A stretch of 33,105 nt of DNA from contig CALJOA010000082.1 in the NCBI GenBank assembly GCA_937981585.1, positions 1 through 33,105 of the forward strand, written 5' to 3'. A model generated the notes under the pieces. It made no database searches, had not been told where the DNA came from, and saw only the letters and a program-made list of their open reading frames with translations. Of the stretch, positions 975 through 30,761 are shown one piece after another. Every line of letters starts with the position of its first letter. The stretch's first letter is position 1. The position numbers were made by a program, and so were the translations under genes. The DNA is from an uncultured Pirellulaceae bacterium. Lineage in GTDB: Bacteria; Planctomycetota; Planctomycetia; Pirellulales; Pirellulaceae.

Positions 975-1883
975 CTACGAATCCTTTGGCGGCTTTTTCG
1001 TTTGTTTAACCACCTGCCCAGCAGGAGCTACTGGCGCATCCTCAATGCCAGCAGTGTGAAGGATGGCAATCTTCTGCCAGATCTTTCCTGAGAGCCCGGT
1101 CGTCAAGCCTTCCAACTCCGACGCCGATGCCATCGCAACTCCGTCGTCAAATTCCTGGACATAAACGGCTGCGATCTTGCCAACCAACGAAAGCATTTCA
1201 CTGCAGTAATCGAGATACCTCCGCAACTGAAACTCCGTCATTTCGAGTTTAGGCGACAGGCCGGTGCTGGCGTACTTGGCATTCTTCATGATCCGGTGTG
1301 GATCCTTGGTCAACTGGTGCATGTCGATCACGTGGGCGATCGAACGCAGTTCATGAATCGCTTTCAACGCACGTTGTCGCTTGTACCGCGTTTCAAAGGA
1401 CAACAAAAAGAAGATCGCCGCCCCAATCAAAACCACGTCGTTAATCCCGGCCTCCATCAGCGTCACGATATCGACGATCCCGCTGCTGGAATCGAAATCA
1501 AAACCAGACAACTGAGCGTTTCCCGAAACAGTGTCGATTTGGTCGCCTTCGCCGATTTGGTAACTAAAGGTTCCCTTTGCTGGGCCTTCTTTGTCTGAGC
1601 CGAGAAAACAAAACGGGAGCAGGGCAACTACAATCACCAACGCACAAATCGTCCACACCAAAATGCGCAGCCAACGTACCGGTTGACCAATCCAAGCCGC
1701 CCTCGATTTCATGTTCTCGCCAATGACGCTCAGTTGTTGGCAAACCGATTGAAGACCCGAATTTGGAAACCGTTCACCAATTCGAAGCTGAAGCTTCTTT
1801 ATGGTTTTTACAAGTTGTTCAGGGTTTAAAGTGTCAACTCTCATAGTTCGCGCGATTGTTTGCTCAGAATGAACGATTTCCAT
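975..1883 (-). CDS. Two-helix membrane protein, unknown function
   Basis: A 302-residue protein. The N-terminal 60 residues are soluble and probably helical. The first membrane segment is at about 71-94. A polar loop of about 50 residues, rich in Gly, Asp and Ser, separates it from a second membrane segment at about 147-163. A long basic, helical cytoplasmic part follows, containing the phrase IDMHQLTKDP (186-195), and the tail is Lys/Pro rich. I believe this phrase recurs in uncharacterised planctomycete proteins, but I cannot name a family. The start ATG has an AGGAGA ribosome-binding site 11 nt upstream; that site can be sequestered in a hairpin (separate entry). It converges with the gene at 423-872. 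Confidence 0.8.
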   Translation of the reverse strand: MEIVHSEQTIARTMRVDTLNPEQLVKTIKKLQLRIGERFPNSGLQSVCQQLSVIGENMKSRAAWIGQPVRWLRILVWTICALVIVVALLPFCFLGSDKEGPAKGTFSYQIGEGDQIDTVSGNAQLSGFDFDSSSGIVDIVTLMEAGINDVVLIGAAIFFLLSFETRYKRQRALKAIHELRSIAHVIDMHQLTKDPHRIMKNAKYASTGLSPKLEMTEFQLRRYLDYCSEMLSLVGKIAAVYVQEFDDGVAMASASELEGLTTGLSGKIWQKIAILHTAGIEDAPVAPAGQVVKQTKKPPKDS

Positions 1884-1894
1884 TGGCCGGAAAG

Positions 1895-1915
1895 TCTCCT
1901 AACCTGACAAGGAGA
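1895..1915 (-). promoter_or_regulatory. Hairpin that can mask the ribosome-binding site of the 302-aa gene
   Basis: On the minus strand TCTCCT and AGGAGA pair around a 9-nt loop. The second arm is the Shine-Dalgarno sequence itself, 11 nt before the ATG at 1883. This could tune translation, but six pairs with a 9-nt loop is only a modest structure. Confidence 0.3.
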
Positions 1916-1943
1916 TTGCGGTAAACTCTTTACTGGCTATGAT
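1916..1943 (+). promoter_or_regulatory. Possible sigma70-type promoter for the 108-aa gene
   Basis: TTGCGG (1916-1921) and TATGAT (1938-1943) are separated by 16 nt, about 36 nt before the ATG at 1980. Agreement with consensus is partial, so this is a weak call. Confidence 0.25.
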
Positions 1944-1979
1944 ATAAGTGGGAGACGGCAGTATTTCGGGATCTTAAAG

Positions 1980-2306
1980 ATGAGAAAACGGCTAGTTTAT
2001 AGACTGGGCAGCCTTGGGCGCCTACCTCTTGATTTTGCGTCGGATTTAGGCCTTGCAATCCACGACGTATTCCTCGACACGGTTTTGGGGCCCACGCCAA
2101 TGGGATCTCGGCGCGAGATTCGTCGTTGGTCCAAAACCGTCAAACGAATCGACCGGCTGGAGCGGTCCATCGCTGGTTCTTCTTCCAAGAAGAATTCGGA
2201 ACAGTTGAGGTTCAGTATTGGCAAGGTCGCCAGTCACTTGCTGGAGATGAACAGGAAAGCGGGCAAAGCATCTCAAAGCAGAACAACTGCAGCTAGTGAA
2301 AACTGA
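1980..2306 (+). CDS. Small basic protein, unknown function
   Basis: A 108-residue protein I do not recognise. It is basic, with an amphipathic N-terminal part, a central helical Arg/Lys-rich segment (about 44-66) and a Ser/Ala/Lys-rich C-terminal tail. No membrane segment, signal peptide or metal motif is visible. The ATG lacks a clear Shine-Dalgarno sequence, but a promoter-like sequence lies just upstream. Two overlapping minus-strand reading frames cover the same DNA. I prefer the plus frame because it is longer and has a plausible upstream signal. It could still be a chance reading frame. Confidence 0.45.
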   Translation: MRKRLVYRLGSLGRLPLDFASDLGLAIHDVFLDTVLGPTPMGSRREIRRWSKTVKRIDRLERSIAGSSSKKNSEQLRFSIGKVASHLLEMNRKAGKASQSRTTAASEN

Positions 2307-2581
2307 ATTTCTGGTGAGTCCAATCTTTGTTGCCCGCGTCGCAGCAAATCGCAGACACTAACGGCGTGACGATGCTTGCAGGCGTTTTGCAGATGCTCAT
2401 AAGTTACCAAGCGGTAAAAGGCTTGGGGCTTGGCGCAACCCGAGACTGCAGTCTATTTCGCCGCTTTTCGAATTGTAGATATTACACGCCAGCGACTGCC
2501 TGATCGGTGTTGCAACTCCATTTACGAGATTCTAATCTTCGCCTTCCTCGTGGTGTTGCATCCCTCCTTAAGGTTGAACCA

Positions 2582-3352
2582 ATGAAGTCGCTTGTTTCCG
2601 TGTTCGTGTTTTTTCTTGTCGCGACAGTTACCTCTGCTGCTCTGGCCCAAATTGATTTCGGATTGGCCGAAGGCGTCGTTCAGGACGCTGCCGACCCAAC
2701 GCCGTGGTCCGGATCATTTGCCGCCGGTCTAAATGGAAAGACGGGTAACAGTCAAAACTTGGACATTAACATTACGATGATTGCCGATCGTGAGACTGAC
2801 TTCAACAAGACTTCATTGCTGGCCAGTTACTTTTACTCTGCCAACGACGTGGCCACGGTAACGGATCGCTTTTTTGGCCAAGCCCGTCGTGAACGAGACC
2901 TGGCCAATGACCGCTGGTGCGTATTTGCGCAAGCCCAATATGAATGGGACCGTTTCAAGTCGTTCGATTACCGACTCGCGTTGCACGGTGGTCTCTGTTT
3001 CAACGTCTTCGAGCTTGAAGATCGTTTTCTAAAGCTTCGTTTCGGTGGTGGTGCTTCAAGAGAATTCGGCTCTGTTGGAGCGGAGTGGCTTCCTGAACTC
3101 CAATTCGGTGGCGACTGGGAACGTCAAGTCAACGAAAACGTCAAGCTATACGCAACGACTGACTATTACCCAAACGTCTCTGATTTTTCTGACTACCGGC
3201 TGGTCACCAATGGCGGGCTCGAGTTTGTTCTAGATGCAGTGCGGAACATCAACTTTCGAATGTTTGCGCTTCATCGCTACGATAGTACACCAGTTGCGGG
3301 AGATCAGAATTCCGACCTTGATTATGGCATGGCGGTAGTCCTCGGATTCTAG
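2582..3352 (+). CDS. DUF481-like outer-membrane beta-barrel protein
   Basis: A 256-residue secreted protein. Residues 1-22 form a signal peptide ending in the cleavage-like SAALAQ. The rest is an alternation of short beta strands with many aromatic residues and ends in a Phe (VVLGF), typical of outer-membrane barrels. The WSGSFAAGLNGKTGNSQ start and the later strand pairs fit the DUF481 (YdiY-like, salt-induced outer-membrane protein) family as I know it. The ATG at 2582 is chosen over an in-frame GTG at 2507 because the signal peptide starts there. The function of the family is not established; an outer-membrane or structural role is inferred. Confidence 0.75.
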   Translation: MKSLVSVFVFFLVATVTSAALAQIDFGLAEGVVQDAADPTPWSGSFAAGLNGKTGNSQNLDINITMIADRETDFNKTSLLASYFYSANDVATVTDRFFGQARRERDLANDRWCVFAQAQYEWDRFKSFDYRLALHGGLCFNVFELEDRFLKLRFGGGASREFGSVGAEWLPELQFGGDWERQVNENVKLYATTDYYPNVSDFSDYRLVTNGGLEFVLDAVRNINFRMFALHRYDSTPVAGDQNSDLDYGMAVVLGF

Positions 3353-3426
3353 ATTTTCGATTTTAACCTCGGCAAGATCTCAAGATTTTTTTGGACCTCA
3401 AAATCGTTATAGATCGATCGTGGAGT

Positions 3427-3495
3427 GCTAATTTCCCCGATTAGCAACTGTTGACTCCCGGCAAATTGTTTTTAGTTGCTAATTCCGATCAGCAA
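3427..3495. repeat. Repeated GCTAAT/ATTAGC hairpins upstream of the HAMP-like gene
   Basis: Stem 1 pairs GCTAAT (3427-3432) with ATTAGC (3440-3445). Stem 2 pairs TTGCT (3476-3480) with AGCAA (3491-3495). Further GCTAA/TTAGC words occur at about 3499 and 3588. The spacing suggests a small repeated element or an operator array in the leader of the gene at 3610. No T-runs follow. Confidence 0.4.
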
Positions 3496-3609
3496 ATGGC
3501 TAACTCTAACCTAGGTTTAGATAACTTTTCAGTCTGACGCGTCTGCCTATTCTGGACAGGCCTGAATGACTACTCATCTACTCCTCTAATTAGCAAACGG
3601 GAGAATGCT

Positions 3610-4140
3610 ATGTCCCTCTCTACCTCTACGCACAAGCGCGAAAGGCTCTTCGTAAACCCAGATATTCAGGGCGGATTGATAATCCGAACGACTATTCACT
3701 GGGGCGTCTACATGGTTGCAGTTCTATTTACCGTCGCGATTTGGACGGCCTTTAGCAACCAACAAGCTTCAATCACTACACTGGCGCAGAACGTGTTTTC
3801 AAACTTCGCTCCAGCCCTAATTGCTGGCGTCGTTCTTCTGCCGCTGTTCCTCTACGACCAGCTAAAGTTCAGCAACCGAATGGTTGGGCCAATCTACCGC
3901 ATGCGACGAGAGATGCGAAAGCTCGCTCGGGGAGAAGGGGTGCAAAAACTCCGATTCCGCGATCGCGATCACTGGCCCGACCTAGCCGATGAGTTCAACC
4001 GTTTGGCGGAAGTCGTAATTCACACGCGTCGATCCCTTCGCACCACCGAAGAGAAGAGCGAAGAAATTGCGGCTAAGACTTTTGCGAACGCCAACCGAAA
4101 GCAGCTTCAACGCCACGAGATGAAGCTTCATCGCAGATAG
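3610..4140 (+). CDS. Two-helix membrane protein with HAMP-like domain and no output domain
   Basis: A 176-residue protein. Membrane segments are at about 31-48 and 67-84. A HAMP-like region follows at about 87-141: a Pro after the second helix (GPIYRMRREMRKLARGE), then a connector and a second helix with the pattern DLADEFNRLAEVV. HAMP domains normally pass a signal from a periplasmic sensor to a kinase or methyl-accepting domain. Here the periplasmic loop is only about 18 residues and no output domain follows, just a charged tail. It may act as a partner subunit. The start is supported by GGGAG 6 nt upstream. A striking hairpin terminator lies 38 nt downstream. Confidence 0.7.
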   Translation: MSLSTSTHKRERLFVNPDIQGGLIIRTTIHWGVYMVAVLFTVAIWTAFSNQQASITTLAQNVFSNFAPALIAGVVLLPLFLYDQLKFSNRMVGPIYRMRREMRKLARGEGVQKLRFRDRDHWPDLADEFNRLAEVVIHTRRSLRTTEEKSEEIAAKTFANANRKQLQRHEMKLHRR

Positions 4141-15340: not shown

Positions 15341-16096
15341 TTACTCGGCGGCTTCTTCACTCAGAGACCAGCCCTTGATGTGCCTGTTGCCTTCTTCGAC
15401 GATTTTATTAAGCGTCGCGGCAACGTCCATTCCCTCAGGAGCGTTGAATGAACAAGTGTTGTCGCCAAGGTTAGTTTTGATTTCAGCGATACCATCAACA
15501 GCGGTCAAAGCCGTTCGCACGGAACGGGCACAGCCACCTCAGGTCATGTTGGGAAGCTTCAAAGAAACAGCTTGAGCTGCTCCCTCGGCCTTCTTCATGT
15601 CTCCATCCATCTTTTTGCCCATCTTCGGCAGAGCAGCTTTCTGCTCGTCGGTCAGCAAGGCAGTGATTTCATTCATGATGGTTGCGGTGACACTGCCCAA
15701 TTTCTTCTTGCCTTCGTCGTACTTGGCCTTGTCTTCATCAGTTAGACCCATGGCGGCATATGTAGCGGCCATAGCTTCTGCGCCCTTCAATCCGTCTTCC
15801 TTGTTCTTCGCATAAGCAGCCTTCAGTTTTTCCATACGTTCAGCAGTCATAACTGAAGCCTGAGCTTTTCTGGCTTCCATCAATGCTGGCATGTGCTTTT
15901 CGACAATCGCTGCAGCTTTCGTCTTTTGATCTTCCGTGAGTTCCGCTTTTGCGAACGCTCTCATCATATTCGCTGTAGTTGTTTTGGTTGCTCTGTCGAG
16001 CATTTTCTTGGCTTGCATATCGACGTCTTGAGCGACAACGTTGGTTGCCGCAAGAAGAGCGATTGCCAAACCAAACAAGATTTTTCTTGTCAGCAT
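15341..16096 (-). CDS. Candidate selenoprotein: secreted LTxxQ-motif protein with C-terminal HMA domain, in-frame UGA as Sec186
   Basis: A 251-residue product if the UGA at codon 186 is read as selenocysteine, 185 if it stops there. Residues 1-22 form a signal peptide (cleavage after VVA). A helical, Lys/Ala-rich region follows with three LT-E/D-DQK-like motifs at about 53, 118 and 148, recalling the periplasmic Spy/CpxP LTxxQ proteins. From about 176 a heavy-metal-associated (HMA) domain begins: VSLKLPNMT, then UGA, then GGCARSVRTALTAVDGI. HMA domains bind soft metals through M-x-C-x-x-C; here the first Cys is the UGA and Cys189 remains. Translation after the UGA keeps the HMA strand/helix pattern to a TAA. 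AGGAG 8 nt before the ATG at 16096 fixes the start over an upstream in-frame ATG. Alternatives: a sequencing error or nonsense mutation in a Cys codon. Confidence 0.75.
15503..15538 (-). promoter_or_regulatory. Candidate bacterial SECIS element
   Basis: Immediately after the UGA, CCGUUC (15527-15522) pairs perfectly with GAACGG (15516-15511) around the loop CGUGC. The apical loop begins 18 nt after the UGA, and its second base is G. Both fit what is known of bacterial SECIS elements, which lie in the coding region next to the UGA and bind SelB. GGU at 15538-15536 can also pair with ACC at 15505-15503, closing a lower stem. Confidence 0.65.
15539..15541 (-). other. In-frame UGA, proposed selenocysteine codon
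   Basis: The codon takes the place of the first Cys in the HMA metal motif (M-T-U-G-G-C). TGA is one substitution from TGC or TGT, so mutation must be excluded. The 65 further open codons and their domain match argue for recoding. Confidence 0.7.
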
Positions 16097-16118
16097 TCTG
16101 GCTTCTCCTGAAGGGATG

Positions 16119-16444: not shown

Positions 16445-19216
16445 TCAATCTATTCTGGCTTGGTCAGGGACTGATGGCTCAGCCGGTGAAGAGTCTAACA
16501 ATCGCTGTGACTCCTTGAGCAAAAACTCATGCTCCATGAAAGGCTCGTAACCAATGTCTTGCCAACGAACCTTGCCGTCGCCATCAATCAAAAACGTCCC
16601 GTGCAACGGCTGATCTTCGAAGTCATCGAACGCCCGAAATTTCTTGAACACTTCGTTGGAACTGTCAGCAGCTAACCTCATCGGTATCTCGCCAGAGAAA
16701 TCTTTGATTGACTGCAGCAAACCCTTCTGGTCATCGGTACTGATCGCAATCATCTTGATCCCAGCATCTTCGAAATCCTTCACCCGTGGAGCAAATGCTT
16801 GCAGCTGTTCGGCGCAGTGAAGGCAGCCGTGACCTAGATAAAAAATGATCAAGTGAGGTTGCCCCTGGTACTCCGACGAGGTGGCGGACTTCCCAGCCGA
16901 ATCCTTTAGAGACCACTTTGGAGCTGCCCACGGCGACCATCGAAACGGACCAAGCGAATCCAGTGGCGGCCGAAAACCAAGATCACTGGCCAGTTCGACA
17001 TTGGCCAACCAAGGAGAATCGTAGCCAAACTCCTTCGCAATCGGATCAAGCCGTGAGAACAATTCGACTTGCTGGTCCATTGAGCTCGATGTGGTGCGAA
17101 GTTTCTCAAATGTTTTTTTCGCCAGATCTATATCTCCATTTTGATATTGAAGAAAAACTTGCCGCGCCAACGGGATGACTTCTTGGGGTCGCCGTTTGAC
17201 TTGGTCGGCCAACTTTTTCAATCCGTCTTCGTGCTTACCGGACATGAACTGCAACTCGGCCAACAAACTGACGTCTTCGCCAGTGGCCTTCTCCAATTTT
17301 TTAAACGCAACTCCAAACTCCTGTTTCTGGTACGCCATGTAACCATCGATAGCGAGCTGCGATTTTTCTATCTGGTCGATCAACTGTTTTAGTTTTGCCA
17401 GTTTCGCTTTGGCCTCCTTCAGGTGGAGCTTTGCCTTCTTGCGATCTGGCTTCTTGATTTTACGCGGTCGGGGAGGGCGATCCGCCGACTTGTCGAGGGT
17501 CGCATCCAAACCAGCGATACGAAAACCGACCTCTTCGAATTCAGCGTTCTTATCAGACAAAAGCTGGCCAAGCTCAGACTTTATTTGGCCAACCAGATTC
17601 GATTCATCTAACATCGCCGCAGCACAGGCTCGCAACCGCAATAGCTTGACGTGCTCGGCCTCGATTTCTTTTTCCACCAAACCGGGAGAAGCCGTGATCT
17701 CGACGGCTTGCTCATACAGCTGAAACTCGCGGAGCACTTGCAACAACCGACGGCGACCATAGCTGGCGCTGCCTTTCTTTTTCACCAACATGTTGTACTT
17801 CGGATGGCGAGGAAGCTCGGTCATGTTCCTCGCCAGATCCAACGCGTCATTGGCTCGCCCAACAAAAACCAGATTTCGAATCAGCCATTCGTTGTTGTGA
17901 GCAAAATTATGAATCTGATCGGGCATCACTTGGTCACGCATCATGTGAGCATGATCGACGCGAGCAGCGGCCTCTTGTTGAAACACCGCATCTGTATAAC
18001 GCTTGAGTCGTGAATAGATATGGCCAGGCATGTGCCACATGTGAGCAATTCCTGGAGCCGCAACTCCGCATCTGGCCGCCGCGCGCAAGGCAGTCTCCGG
18101 ATTGCGAGTGTCCCACAAATGAATCGAGTAGTGATTAGCCGGATGAAGCGGCTCGGCGGCGTAAATCTGATCCAGCAACGCGTTGGTCGCTAGAAAACTA
18201 CTGACCGGAATGCCTTCGCGACTGTTATACCAAATTCGATGTGCGACAAACGCTTTGATCTCGATATCGTCGGGATACTTGAGCGAGATTGATTCGAGAT
18301 CTTTCAAGTAGGCTTGGGCCCGTTTCGATTTTCCCTTTTTGTCTTTCTTCTTTTCGTCCTTGAGATAGCGCTCAAGTGCTTCGATCAACAAACGCTCGCG
18401 CTCGGTCAACAGATCGTCCAACTCCTCCTTGAGCTCGACTGCTTTTGCGATAAATCCCTGGGACCGCTTACGCTTTGACGTCGTCGCCATTGCGGCGCCC
18501 CAATAGGCCATCGCACAACGCGGGTCGATTGCGGCGGCCTGCCGAAACGACCTTTCGGCTTCGAGGTACCAGAAACCGTGAAGCTGCCCAACGCCTTGAT
18601 TGATGAAGGCTTGTGCCTCTTTGGATTGGGTCGTAACCGGGAACTTCACATTTCCGGTACCACCCATCAAGTATGCGGATTGGCGAGGCCCCTCGTTGAA
18701 GGCGTCGCCATGAATCGAGTGGCCTTCCAGAATTTCCGCAAGCGCATCTCCAAGCTCGTCTTCGCTATTGGAGTCTTCGTCTGACGAGTCGGTTTTGTTG
18801 GCTGGGGCATCCTTGTTGGTCTTGGCCGCCTTGTCTTGCCAGCCGTATCCATTTTCGACAAACAGGAGCGATGCGACACTGAGAATCAACAGCTGAATCA
18901 AACCGACTCGCAACCATCCACAAAACAACTCACACTTTCGACCGGCTTTTCGGGCCGGTGAAAGAGTCTGGAACTTCGACTGTACGAACTTGTGGCCCAC
19001 CAGATGCGCCCTCTCAAAATGGATTGCCGGAAAATGCTCTGCCAACGATTGGCGATCACAATTTACCCAACCGGGCAGGGTGATTGATGGTTCATTGTAA
19101 TAACTGGCGTAGTTTGACAGAACTACCAGATCCAATGTTCTGGCTTTTCCTCCTCTATTTTTGACGAAGCGAGTCAAAATCGGCACAGAAGTAAGATCTA
19201 GTCGTGAACAAATCAC
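16445..19216 (-). CDS. TPR-repeat protein with C-terminal AhpC/TSA-type redoxin domain
   Basis: Up to 923 residues. A hydrophobic segment at about 102-120, followed by YGWQ, looks like an export signal. The 100 residues before it have no family look, so the true start may be an in-frame GTG or TTG near residues 75-105; no ATG lies between residue 1 and about 183. The middle holds tetratricopeptide-like helices (FWYLEAERSFRQAAAIDPRC and others, in pieces) and Lys-rich coiled segments. The C-terminus, from about 760, is a thioredoxin-fold peroxiredoxin-like domain with a GHGCLHC active site (Cys798 and Cys801) and the later MIAISTDD and GTFLIDGDGKVRW strands. Role: probably periplasmic thiol redox coupled to protein interaction (inferred). 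The candidate selenoprotein follows 348 nt downstream on the same strand. Confidence 0.8.
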   Translation of the reverse strand: MICSRLDLTSVPILTRFVKNRGGKARTLDLVVLSNYASYYNEPSITLPGWVNCDRQSLAEHFPAIHFERAHLVGHKFVQSKFQTLSPARKAGRKCELFCGWLRVGLIQLLILSVASLLFVENGYGWQDKAAKTNKDAPANKTDSSDEDSNSEDELGDALAEILEGHSIHGDAFNEGPRQSAYLMGGTGNVKFPVTTQSKEAQAFINQGVGQLHGFWYLEAERSFRQAAAIDPRCAMAYWGAAMATTSKRKRSQGFIAKAVELKEELDDLLTERERLLIEALERYLKDEKKKDKKGKSKRAQAYLKDLESISLKYPDDIEIKAFVAHRIWYNSREGIPVSSFLATNALLDQIYAAEPLHPANHYSIHLWDTRNPETALRAAARCGVAAPGIAHMWHMPGHIYSRLKRYTDAVFQQEAAARVDHAHMMRDQVMPDQIHNFAHNNEWLIRNLVFVGRANDALDLARNMTELPRHPKYNMLVKKKGSASYGRRRLLQVLREFQLYEQAVEITASPGLVEKEIEAEHVKLLRLRACAAAMLDESNLVGQIKSELGQLLSDKNAEFEEVGFRIAGLDATLDKSADRPPRPRKIKKPDRKKAKLHLKEAKAKLAKLKQLIDQIEKSQLAIDGYMAYQKQEFGVAFKKLEKATGEDVSLLAELQFMSGKHEDGLKKLADQVKRRPQEVIPLARQVFLQYQNGDIDLAKKTFEKLRTTSSSMDQQVELFSRLDPIAKEFGYDSPWLANVELASDLGFRPPLDSLGPFRWSPWAAPKWSLKDSAGKSATSSEYQGQPHLIIFYLGHGCLHCAEQLQAFAPRVKDFEDAGIKMIAISTDDQKGLLQSIKDFSGEIPMRLAADSSNEVFKKFRAFDDFEDQPLHGTFLIDGDGKVRWQDIGYEPFMEHEFLLKESQRLLDSSPAEPSVPDQARID

Positions 19217-30011: not shown

Positions 30012-30761
30012 TCAGCGACGAGTTCGCTTTTTGGCCTTCTTTTTGGCCGGCTTCTTTTTCTTCGCTACCTTTTTCTTGGGCGATGCCTTCGCTTTCTTGG
30101 CTGACTTTTTCGTCTTCTTTTTTGTCTTCTTTTTTACTTTCTTTTTGGCCGGCTTTTTCTTCGCCTTCTTCTTGGTGACTTTCTTCTTCGTCACTTTCTT
30201 TTTGGTCTTCTTGGCGGTTTTCTTCTTTGCCTTCTTTTTCGATTTCTTCTCTACCTTCGTCTTGATCGCCTTGGGAGATGGAGCGGTCTTTACTTTCTTC
30301 TTTTTACGTTTCTCATACAGCTTCTCAACGCGCGAACGGTCACTGGATTCAAGTTCACGCGCCAAACAGGCAAGCTCCCACGCCTTTCTCTTTCCGTATT
30401 TTTTGAATGAAAAACTGAGCTTGCTTCGCCCGCCAGTGCCGGTCTTCCAGGACGCACAGTACGACGAGTACATTTCACCGTAGACGGATTCACAAACTGC
30501 TAAATGGACGCCCACCACACCAGTTCGGTTGCGGGCGGTCTTGATTCCCTTGGTCGTTTTAGGCGGAGGAAGCTTGGCCTTGAGTTTTTTGTAGCGTTTC
30601 CTCGCCGCTTCGAGAGCTTTTCGTTTGCCTCCGCTATTCTTATCCGAAAAGAACTCGTTAATGTGGTTGCCATTTCGCGAGATGCGCATCATGAAACCGT
30701 ACGTTCCTTGCTCTTCAATGTCGTAACGAGTGATTCCTCGTTCAACCAGCTTGGTGCCCAT
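30012..30761 (-). CDS. Two AP2-like domains with a lysine-rich histone-H1-like tail
   Basis: A 249-residue, very basic protein. Residues about 8-62 (GITRYD, then YGFMMRISRNG, then SGGKRKALEAAR) and about 80-137 (RTGVVGVHLAV, then YCASWKTG, then KYGKRKAWELACLA) both look like AP2/ERF-type DNA-binding folds: three strands then a helix. From about 150 on the sequence is a near-pure Lys/Ala/Pro/Thr repeat (KKAKKKPAKKK-type), as in histone H1 or the bacterial Hc1-type proteins. It probably binds DNA non-specifically and compacts it while the AP2-like domains add contacts. AGGA stands 7 nt before the ATG. It converges with the DUF5060 gene, leaving 42 nt. Confidence 0.75.
   Translation of the reverse strand: MGTKLVERGITRYDIEEQGTYGFMMRISRNGNHINEFFSDKNSGGKRKALEAARKRYKKLKAKLPPPKTTKGIKTARNRTGVVGVHLAVCESVYGEMYSSYCASWKTGTGGRSKLSFSFKKYGKRKAWELACLARELESSDRSRVEKLYEKRKKKKVKTAPSPKAIKTKVEKKSKKKAKKKTAKKTKKKVTKKKVTKKKAKKKPAKKKVKKKTKKKTKKSAKKAKASPKKKVAKKKKPAKKKAKKRTRR

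Follow-up and report, generated by a model that had tools for sequence, protein, structure and literature searches.

The gene at positions 15341 to 16096 of the window, by which we mean the whole stretch of 33,105 nucleotides analysed from an uncultured Pirellulaceae bacterium, very probably encodes an exported selenoprotein, in which an in-frame UGA is read as selenocysteine (Sec, U) and an HMA domain carries a U-x-x-C metal site. The initial annotation had proposed a real selenoprotein at this locus. Comparative sequence evidence supports that proposal, through a conserved UGA, coding constraint downstream of it, a covarying hairpin and the presence of Sec machinery in congeners. Sec insertion at the UGA appears strongly supported by comparison with relatives; for the organism itself we infer it. 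The gene and its parts are located as follows.

15341..16096, minus strand: putative selenoprotein gene, 251 residues with TGA as Sec; relatives share the TGA position
16105..16109, minus strand: candidate ribosome-binding site AGGAG ahead of the ATG at 16096, recognised from the sequence
16028..16096, minus strand: probable export signal, residues 1-23 (MLTRKILFGLAIALLAATNVVAQ), a reading by eye only
15581..16027, minus strand: helical N-terminal part, residues 24-172; AlphaFold helices, LTXXQ-like below the Pfam cut-off
15344..15580, minus strand: HMA domain, residues 173-251, motif MT-U-GGC; Pfam PF00403, MerP-like model
15539..15541, minus strand: TGA, read as predicted Sec186 (codon 186), at the first Cys of the HMA CxxC; TGA in 40 of 48 domains
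15511..15527, minus strand: SECIS-like hairpin, stem CCGUUC/GAACGG of 6 bp, loop CGUGC at 15517-15521
15341..15343, minus strand: TAA ending the full-length frame, from the frame translation

The reading frame described in the initial annotation was confirmed: from the ATG at 16096 it meets the TGA at 15539-15541, stays open for 65 further codons and ends at the TAA. These 65 codons had been assigned to an HMA domain whose first motif Cys is replaced by the putative Sec codon (LPNMT-U-GGC), and the assignment holds. Aligned alone to Pfam HMA, the 65 codons scored 24.9 bits, where the gathering threshold is 24.8. On the complete 251-residue protein, with C written for Sec, Pfam HMA (PF00403) matches across the site, at residues 179-234 (E 1.2e-9, 38.9 bits against 24.8). 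The N-terminal part scored 15.3 and 16.4 bits with Pfam LTXXQ (PF07813), under the gathering score of 24.3. The export signal read by eye at the N-terminus suggests that the protein is likely exported. A single-sequence AlphaFold model of modest confidence (pLDDT 68) has helices first and then an HMA-like part of beta-alpha-beta-beta-alpha topology, in which U lies in the loop behind the first strand. The top Foldseek matches of the model were MerP, CopP, Ccc2a and CopZ, and no match fell below an E-value of 0.001; MerP gave a TM-score of 0.76 by target and a Foldseek E-value of 9.3e-3.

Seven of the 24 window ORFs that were hand-picked as main genes end in TGA, and none of the extensions past the TGA in these seven resembles a conserved protein by eye. 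Rfam at gathering thresholds gave no matches over the window. Immediately upstream of the selenoprotein gene, positions 16445-19216 encode a protein that has an AhpC/TSA domain, a CLHC motif and weak matches to TPR. The genes of the window give it a planctomycete appearance, since it encodes a DUF1552 protein and a protein with 'Planctomycete cytochrome C' and the DUF1585/1587/1588/1592/1595 set. The protein encoded at 30012-30761 has a long tail rich in lysine and alanine (KKKAKKK repeats) and looks histone H1-like by eye.

The 251-residue protein was used as query against a family sample of 149 genomes, its own included, of which 91 were matched. Domains were taken from listed matches that extend to at least residue 208, and shorter matches, some of which reach slightly past the TGA position, were left out. 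In total, 48 distinct HMA domains were read, of which 40 (in 31 genomes) have TGA at the key codon and eight have TGC or TGT, though the genomes are related and counts across them are not independent. Homologues with Cys at position 186, which the initial annotation had proposed to look for, are present among the relatives. Three of the eight Cys domains (L109, L110 and L112) are distant, generic HMA domains, and one of the 40 TGA domains (L099) looks worn, with its second Cys also missing. In a phylum sample of 392 genomes, again including its own, the only other genome below E 1e-20 among the matches listed was G460, which belongs to the same class (1.2e-24, one TGA); a further thirteen listed matches with one TGA were all weak.

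The bacterium's own genome assembly (3.5 Mb, 158 contigs, 80.2% complete) contains a second TGA gene (L002), which has the same MT-TGA-GGC site in a frame of 144 residues and is lipoprotein-like by eye. It adjoins the genes for S15 and PNPase, a neighbourhood that is shared by two congeners. Within the genus, TGA-bearing domains were found in three of the six sampled genomes. In the congener G144, the orthologue (L083:4386-5300) has kept its N-terminal part, its frame stops before the HMA domain and an interrupted HMA remnant lies beyond; this genome has tRNA-Sec, selA and selB despite the decayed HMA part. Unlike G144, both TGA genes of the own genome have an intact frame and retain the HMA residues after the TGA. 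In G067 and G134, the matches span the N-terminal part alone.

Coding constraint was evaluated over 53 gap-free codons after the UGA in 11 hand-chosen sequence pairs. A loss of constraint in relatives would have spoken against the initial annotation, and constraint was found: dN/dS was 0.03 to 0.37 in nine of the ten computable pairs and 0.54 in the tenth, which was the pair with the fewest changes. dS was not computable in one of the 11 pairs and near saturation in several others. Third codon positions were the most variable in all 11 pairs. The pattern of substitutions indicates that the post-TGA sequence is under purifying selection.

In the window, a hairpin begins 11 nt past the UGA, with its loop 17 nt after the UGA. 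By itself this hairpin gives weak support: its fold energy is -7.4 kcal/mol (z -1.28), and synonymous shuffles equal it in 5.3% of cases. With columns numbered from the T of the TGA, the stem is formed by columns 15-20 and 26-31, and the loop GU lies at columns 22-23. A gap-free alignment of 30 of the 40 TGA sequences served as covariation set, leaving out the four domains of L025 as well as L022, L084, L078, L023, L020 and L002, which have another register or loop length. In this set, 96.1% of the 180 cells were paired, a percentage raised by the omission of the ten off-register sequences, and two-sided changes occurred in all six pairs. None of 500 shuffles scored as high, and with the partner shifted by 1 to 3 columns 32 to 47% of the cells were paired. 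With the register fixed over all 40 TGA sequences, 84% of the cells were paired and 29 sequences had at least five of the six pairs; the corresponding values for the Cys forms were 19% of the cells and none of eight sequences.

When the register was left free, 38 of the 40 TGA sequences had a stem of at least 5 bp with a GU loop, where synonymous shuffles predict 10.6. No such stem was found among the eight Cys homologues, and there were six among 63 distinct control HMA domains with Cys, taken from other bacteria. These controls derive from a peptide-pattern scan that yielded 76 loci (63 distinct; 71 of the 76 proteobacterial), all of them Cys-type because the scan pattern read the key codon as Cys. 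The two TGA sequences without an uninterrupted 5-bp stem were L099 and L002, the latter with a mismatch in its predicted stem (-6.1 kcal/mol). Minimum free energy against synonymous shuffles gave no discrimination (mean z -0.36 for TGA, 0.25 for Cys). At the level of the family, the covariation in 30 of the 40 TGA sequences indicates that a GU-loop hairpin after the UGA has been kept by paired changes.

General constraints on bacterial SECIS elements, as given in the accessible part of the 2026 review PMC13188914, are a loop of 3-9 nt, a stem of 4-16 bp, G in loop positions 1-2, a spacing of 16-37 nt and a minimum free energy of -7.5 or lower. By these published values, the window hairpin lies within the limits for loop, stem, spacing (17 nt) and position of the G; its free energy agrees when 45 nt are folded (-14.5) and narrowly misses the limit for the short hairpin alone (-7.4). 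As a discriminating test these general criteria were dropped, because they are passed by 38 of the 40 TGA sequences and yet also by 29 of the 63 Cys controls (stem of at least 5 bp).

The sel genes, the absence of which from a complete genome would have told against the initial annotation, were recovered in part. In the own assembly, 80.2% complete, selD was found (261 bits, cut-off 125), whereas selA gave no match, selB nothing above its cut-off, and tRNA-Sec was not found. Nine tRNA-Sec-like hits in this genome lie below the cut-off, and the eight with loci are ordinary tRNAs according to ARAGORN. The selD sequence (L139; contig 25 of G000, frame 1662-3983) forms the C-terminal part of a 773-residue frame near a contig end, and a pyridine nucleotide-disulphide oxidoreductase domain lies ahead of it in the same frame. 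The missing selA, selB and tRNA-Sec are the main weakness of the selenoprotein reading. Among five sampled congeners, tRNA-Sec (tca anticodon) and selB were present in all five and selA was over the cut-off in four. In the congeners these genes sit on separate contigs, so their joint absence is unlikely to come from one gap; more than one gap would be needed. An HU/IHF-type gene adjoins selA at all four congener selA loci, and a CxxCxxCC-domain gene at two. Neither neighbour was matched in the own assembly, an empty answer that is weak evidence and favours an assembly gap at the selA locus.

In the family sample of 149 genomes, 29 of the 31 TGA-bearing genomes have a tRNA-Sec scoring 63 bits or more, versus 49 of the 118 others (Fisher p 9e-8, a guide figure since the genomes are related). 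The two TGA-bearing genomes without it are the own genome (80% complete) and G143 (77% complete), which has selA. Conversely, the Cys-form genomes G053 and G097 have no selB above the cut-off and no strong tRNA-Sec; a selA-like hit in G097 lies narrowly above the cut-off (297 against 267.9 bits), with the rest of the machinery missing. G029 has a Cys-form domain, yet has retained the Sec machinery.

Several other explanations of the in-frame TGA and of its function were weighed. Neither a sequencing error nor a genetic code in which TGA generally stands for an amino acid found any support, and their probability is close to nil; both were rejected, given that the same TGA is kept in 31 genomes and that TGA terminates seven of the 24 picked window ORFs. 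It is very unlikely that the UGA is a real stop, following a recent loss of selA, selB and tRNA-Sec, that leaves a 185-residue product and an HMA relic. Such a loss would account for the genes missing from the own assembly, selD can serve other selenium uses (according to the part of PMC9312934 available to us), and G144 offers an example of an HMA part decaying while the N-terminal part persists. Against it, the assembly is far from complete, the unmatched selA neighbours fit a gap, however weakly, selB and tRNA-Sec occur in every sampled congener, and both TGA genes of the genome itself continue past the TGA with frame and HMA residues intact. A selenium-dependent switch, in which the UGA would give rise to both a 185-residue helical form and a 251-residue HMA form, is compatible with the selenoprotein reading and in our judgement unlikely. 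Many genomes matched the N-terminal part but not the HMA part, so a short form could function alone; in six of 12 TGA-bearing frames, however, what precedes the HMA domain is little and lipoprotein-like by eye, and termination at the UGA would leave these without any domain.

The main alternative to metal binding is a redox role, in which the protein is a selenoprotein and its U-x-x-C pair performs thiol/selenol chemistry. We regard this alternative as somewhat unlikely. It is in line with the expectation of PMC13188914, in its accessible part, that most uncharacterised selenoproteins have redox functions, and with the AhpC/TSA-domain protein encoded directly upstream. That neighbour, however, is absent from the locus of the G100 orthologue and was not common to at least three of the 24 loci compared, and the fold and the motif are of the metallochaperone type known from MerP and CopZ. 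That metal binding is the main role has about an even chance, judged by analogy with the family. Genomic context gives no function and indicates no metal: the groups of neighbours shared in at least three of the 24 loci were one resembling sulfatases, one resembling kinases (both by eye) and two made up of spurious ORFs that overlie the selenoprotein gene itself.

On the selenoprotein reading with a metal site, which we prefer, the ribosome would read the UGA at 15539-15541 as selenocysteine. The hairpin 11 nt past the UGA would direct the insertion, its GU loop being bound by SelB carrying Sec-tRNA. In the predicted product, the N-terminal part is helical and the HMA domain behind it has U-x-x-C in place of C-x-x-C; this protein would be exported and act outside the cytoplasm. 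There, the selenolate-thiolate pair may bind or hand on a soft metal ion, such as Cu(I), Hg(II) or similar.

The TGA-bearing HMA domain occurs in several architectures. It follows a helical part in the window protein, L020 and L022, and a lipoprotein-like part (by eye) in L002, L038, L044, L078 and L084. In L098 (L098:1003-1896) it is joined to a YceI domain (Pfam YceI, E 2.8e-27). L093, L100, L101 and L107 have frames similar to that of L098, judged by eye or from their length and HMA sequence. On contig 92 of G076, L025:940-2289 encodes 450 residues in one lipoprotein-like frame, which contains a Cys-rich linker and four HMA domains in tandem. This frame has TGA at the metal motif of each of its four HMA domains and otherwise no stop, and it is, from its sequence, an apparent four-Sec bacterial protein. 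The inventory of PMC13188914, as far as accessible, gives at most 2-3 Sec residues for prokaryotic selenoproteins. With a Sec count above this, the G076 protein could serve to soak up metal by means of selenium or to store selenium in the bacterium. We tentatively suggest, with slightly less than an even chance of being right, that the lineage has an exported metal-binding family in which U-x-x-C is the rule and Cys the exception, with fusions to helical, YceI and lipoprotein-like parts, and with the four-UGA protein of G076 as a possible metal sponge or selenium store.

Gene prediction in which every UGA counts as a stop would lose the metal-binding half of such proteins. If the proposed reading is true, exported metal handling in these bacteria would be selenium-dependent. 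The sister domains with TGC and TGA would then offer a natural Cys/Sec comparison on why selenium is used for holding metal, given that the reason for selenium is a question mostly raised about redox enzymes.

The hairpin resembles the SECIS element of E. coli fdhF, which is also a GU-loop stem-loop at a nearly equal distance from the UGA, the fdhF GU lying one base further in the E. coli records. L022 and three of the four L025 domains have GGUCU between UGC and GCA, and fdhF has the same with one extra A. The fdhF stem sequence is unlike that of most family members, and recognition by SelB is putative here. Among protein families, the novelty implied by the initial annotation has to be set lower, as Sec in HMA-type metal-binding proteins was already known. 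The literature found on planctomycete, HMA and multi-Sec bacterial selenoproteins, which mostly did not cover subscription papers, contained no listed title or abstract opening that reports the present family, and the family with its four-Sec member is absent from the accessible inventory of PMC13188914. PF00403 was not found within the available text of that paper, which has a table of 119 families. Planctomycete selenoproteins have been reported from two Porphyra isolates (PMC4807772, accessible part).

The NCBIfam family NF041115, 'UxxU metal-binding (seleno)protein', likewise consists of a small domain of the HMA type whose metal motif contains Sec; its counterpart in Table 1 of PMC13188914, in the text available, is a 'putative mercuric reductase' with UxxU. 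This family has two Sec (UxxU), in contrast to the one Sec (UxxC) of the window protein, which is fused to other parts; with its profile the window protein scored 25.4 bits and the second copy 34.2, against a cut-off of 95, so that neither is a member. As far as the accessible part of the GOS survey goes (PMC2398784, Table 2), it includes a Sec-containing MerP (2 sequences, in a table without the motif) and a UxxC cation ATPase (1 sequence). MerP has the same fold as the HMA part of the window protein and is its first structural match, whereas the MerP profile (TIGR02052) gave 30.7 bits against a cut-off of 92.55, outside membership. The cation-transporting ATPase E1-E2 listed in Table 1 of PMC13188914, again in the accessible text, has UxxC in a metal-transport protein, as the window protein does, but it is a P-type ATPase, whereas the HMA domain of the window belongs to a protein without an ATPase. 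NF045683, the MerT/CopZ fusion-like heavy metal transport selenoprotein of NCBIfam (MerT_CopZ_Se), matches the window HMA with its CopZ-like part only, at 23.7 bits against 375, and the window protein is not a member. The metallochaperones MerP and CopZ have fold and motif in common with the HMA part of the window protein. Sec in HMA/MerP-like proteins is known in kind, and what appears new, against the inventory and listings covered, is the present family.
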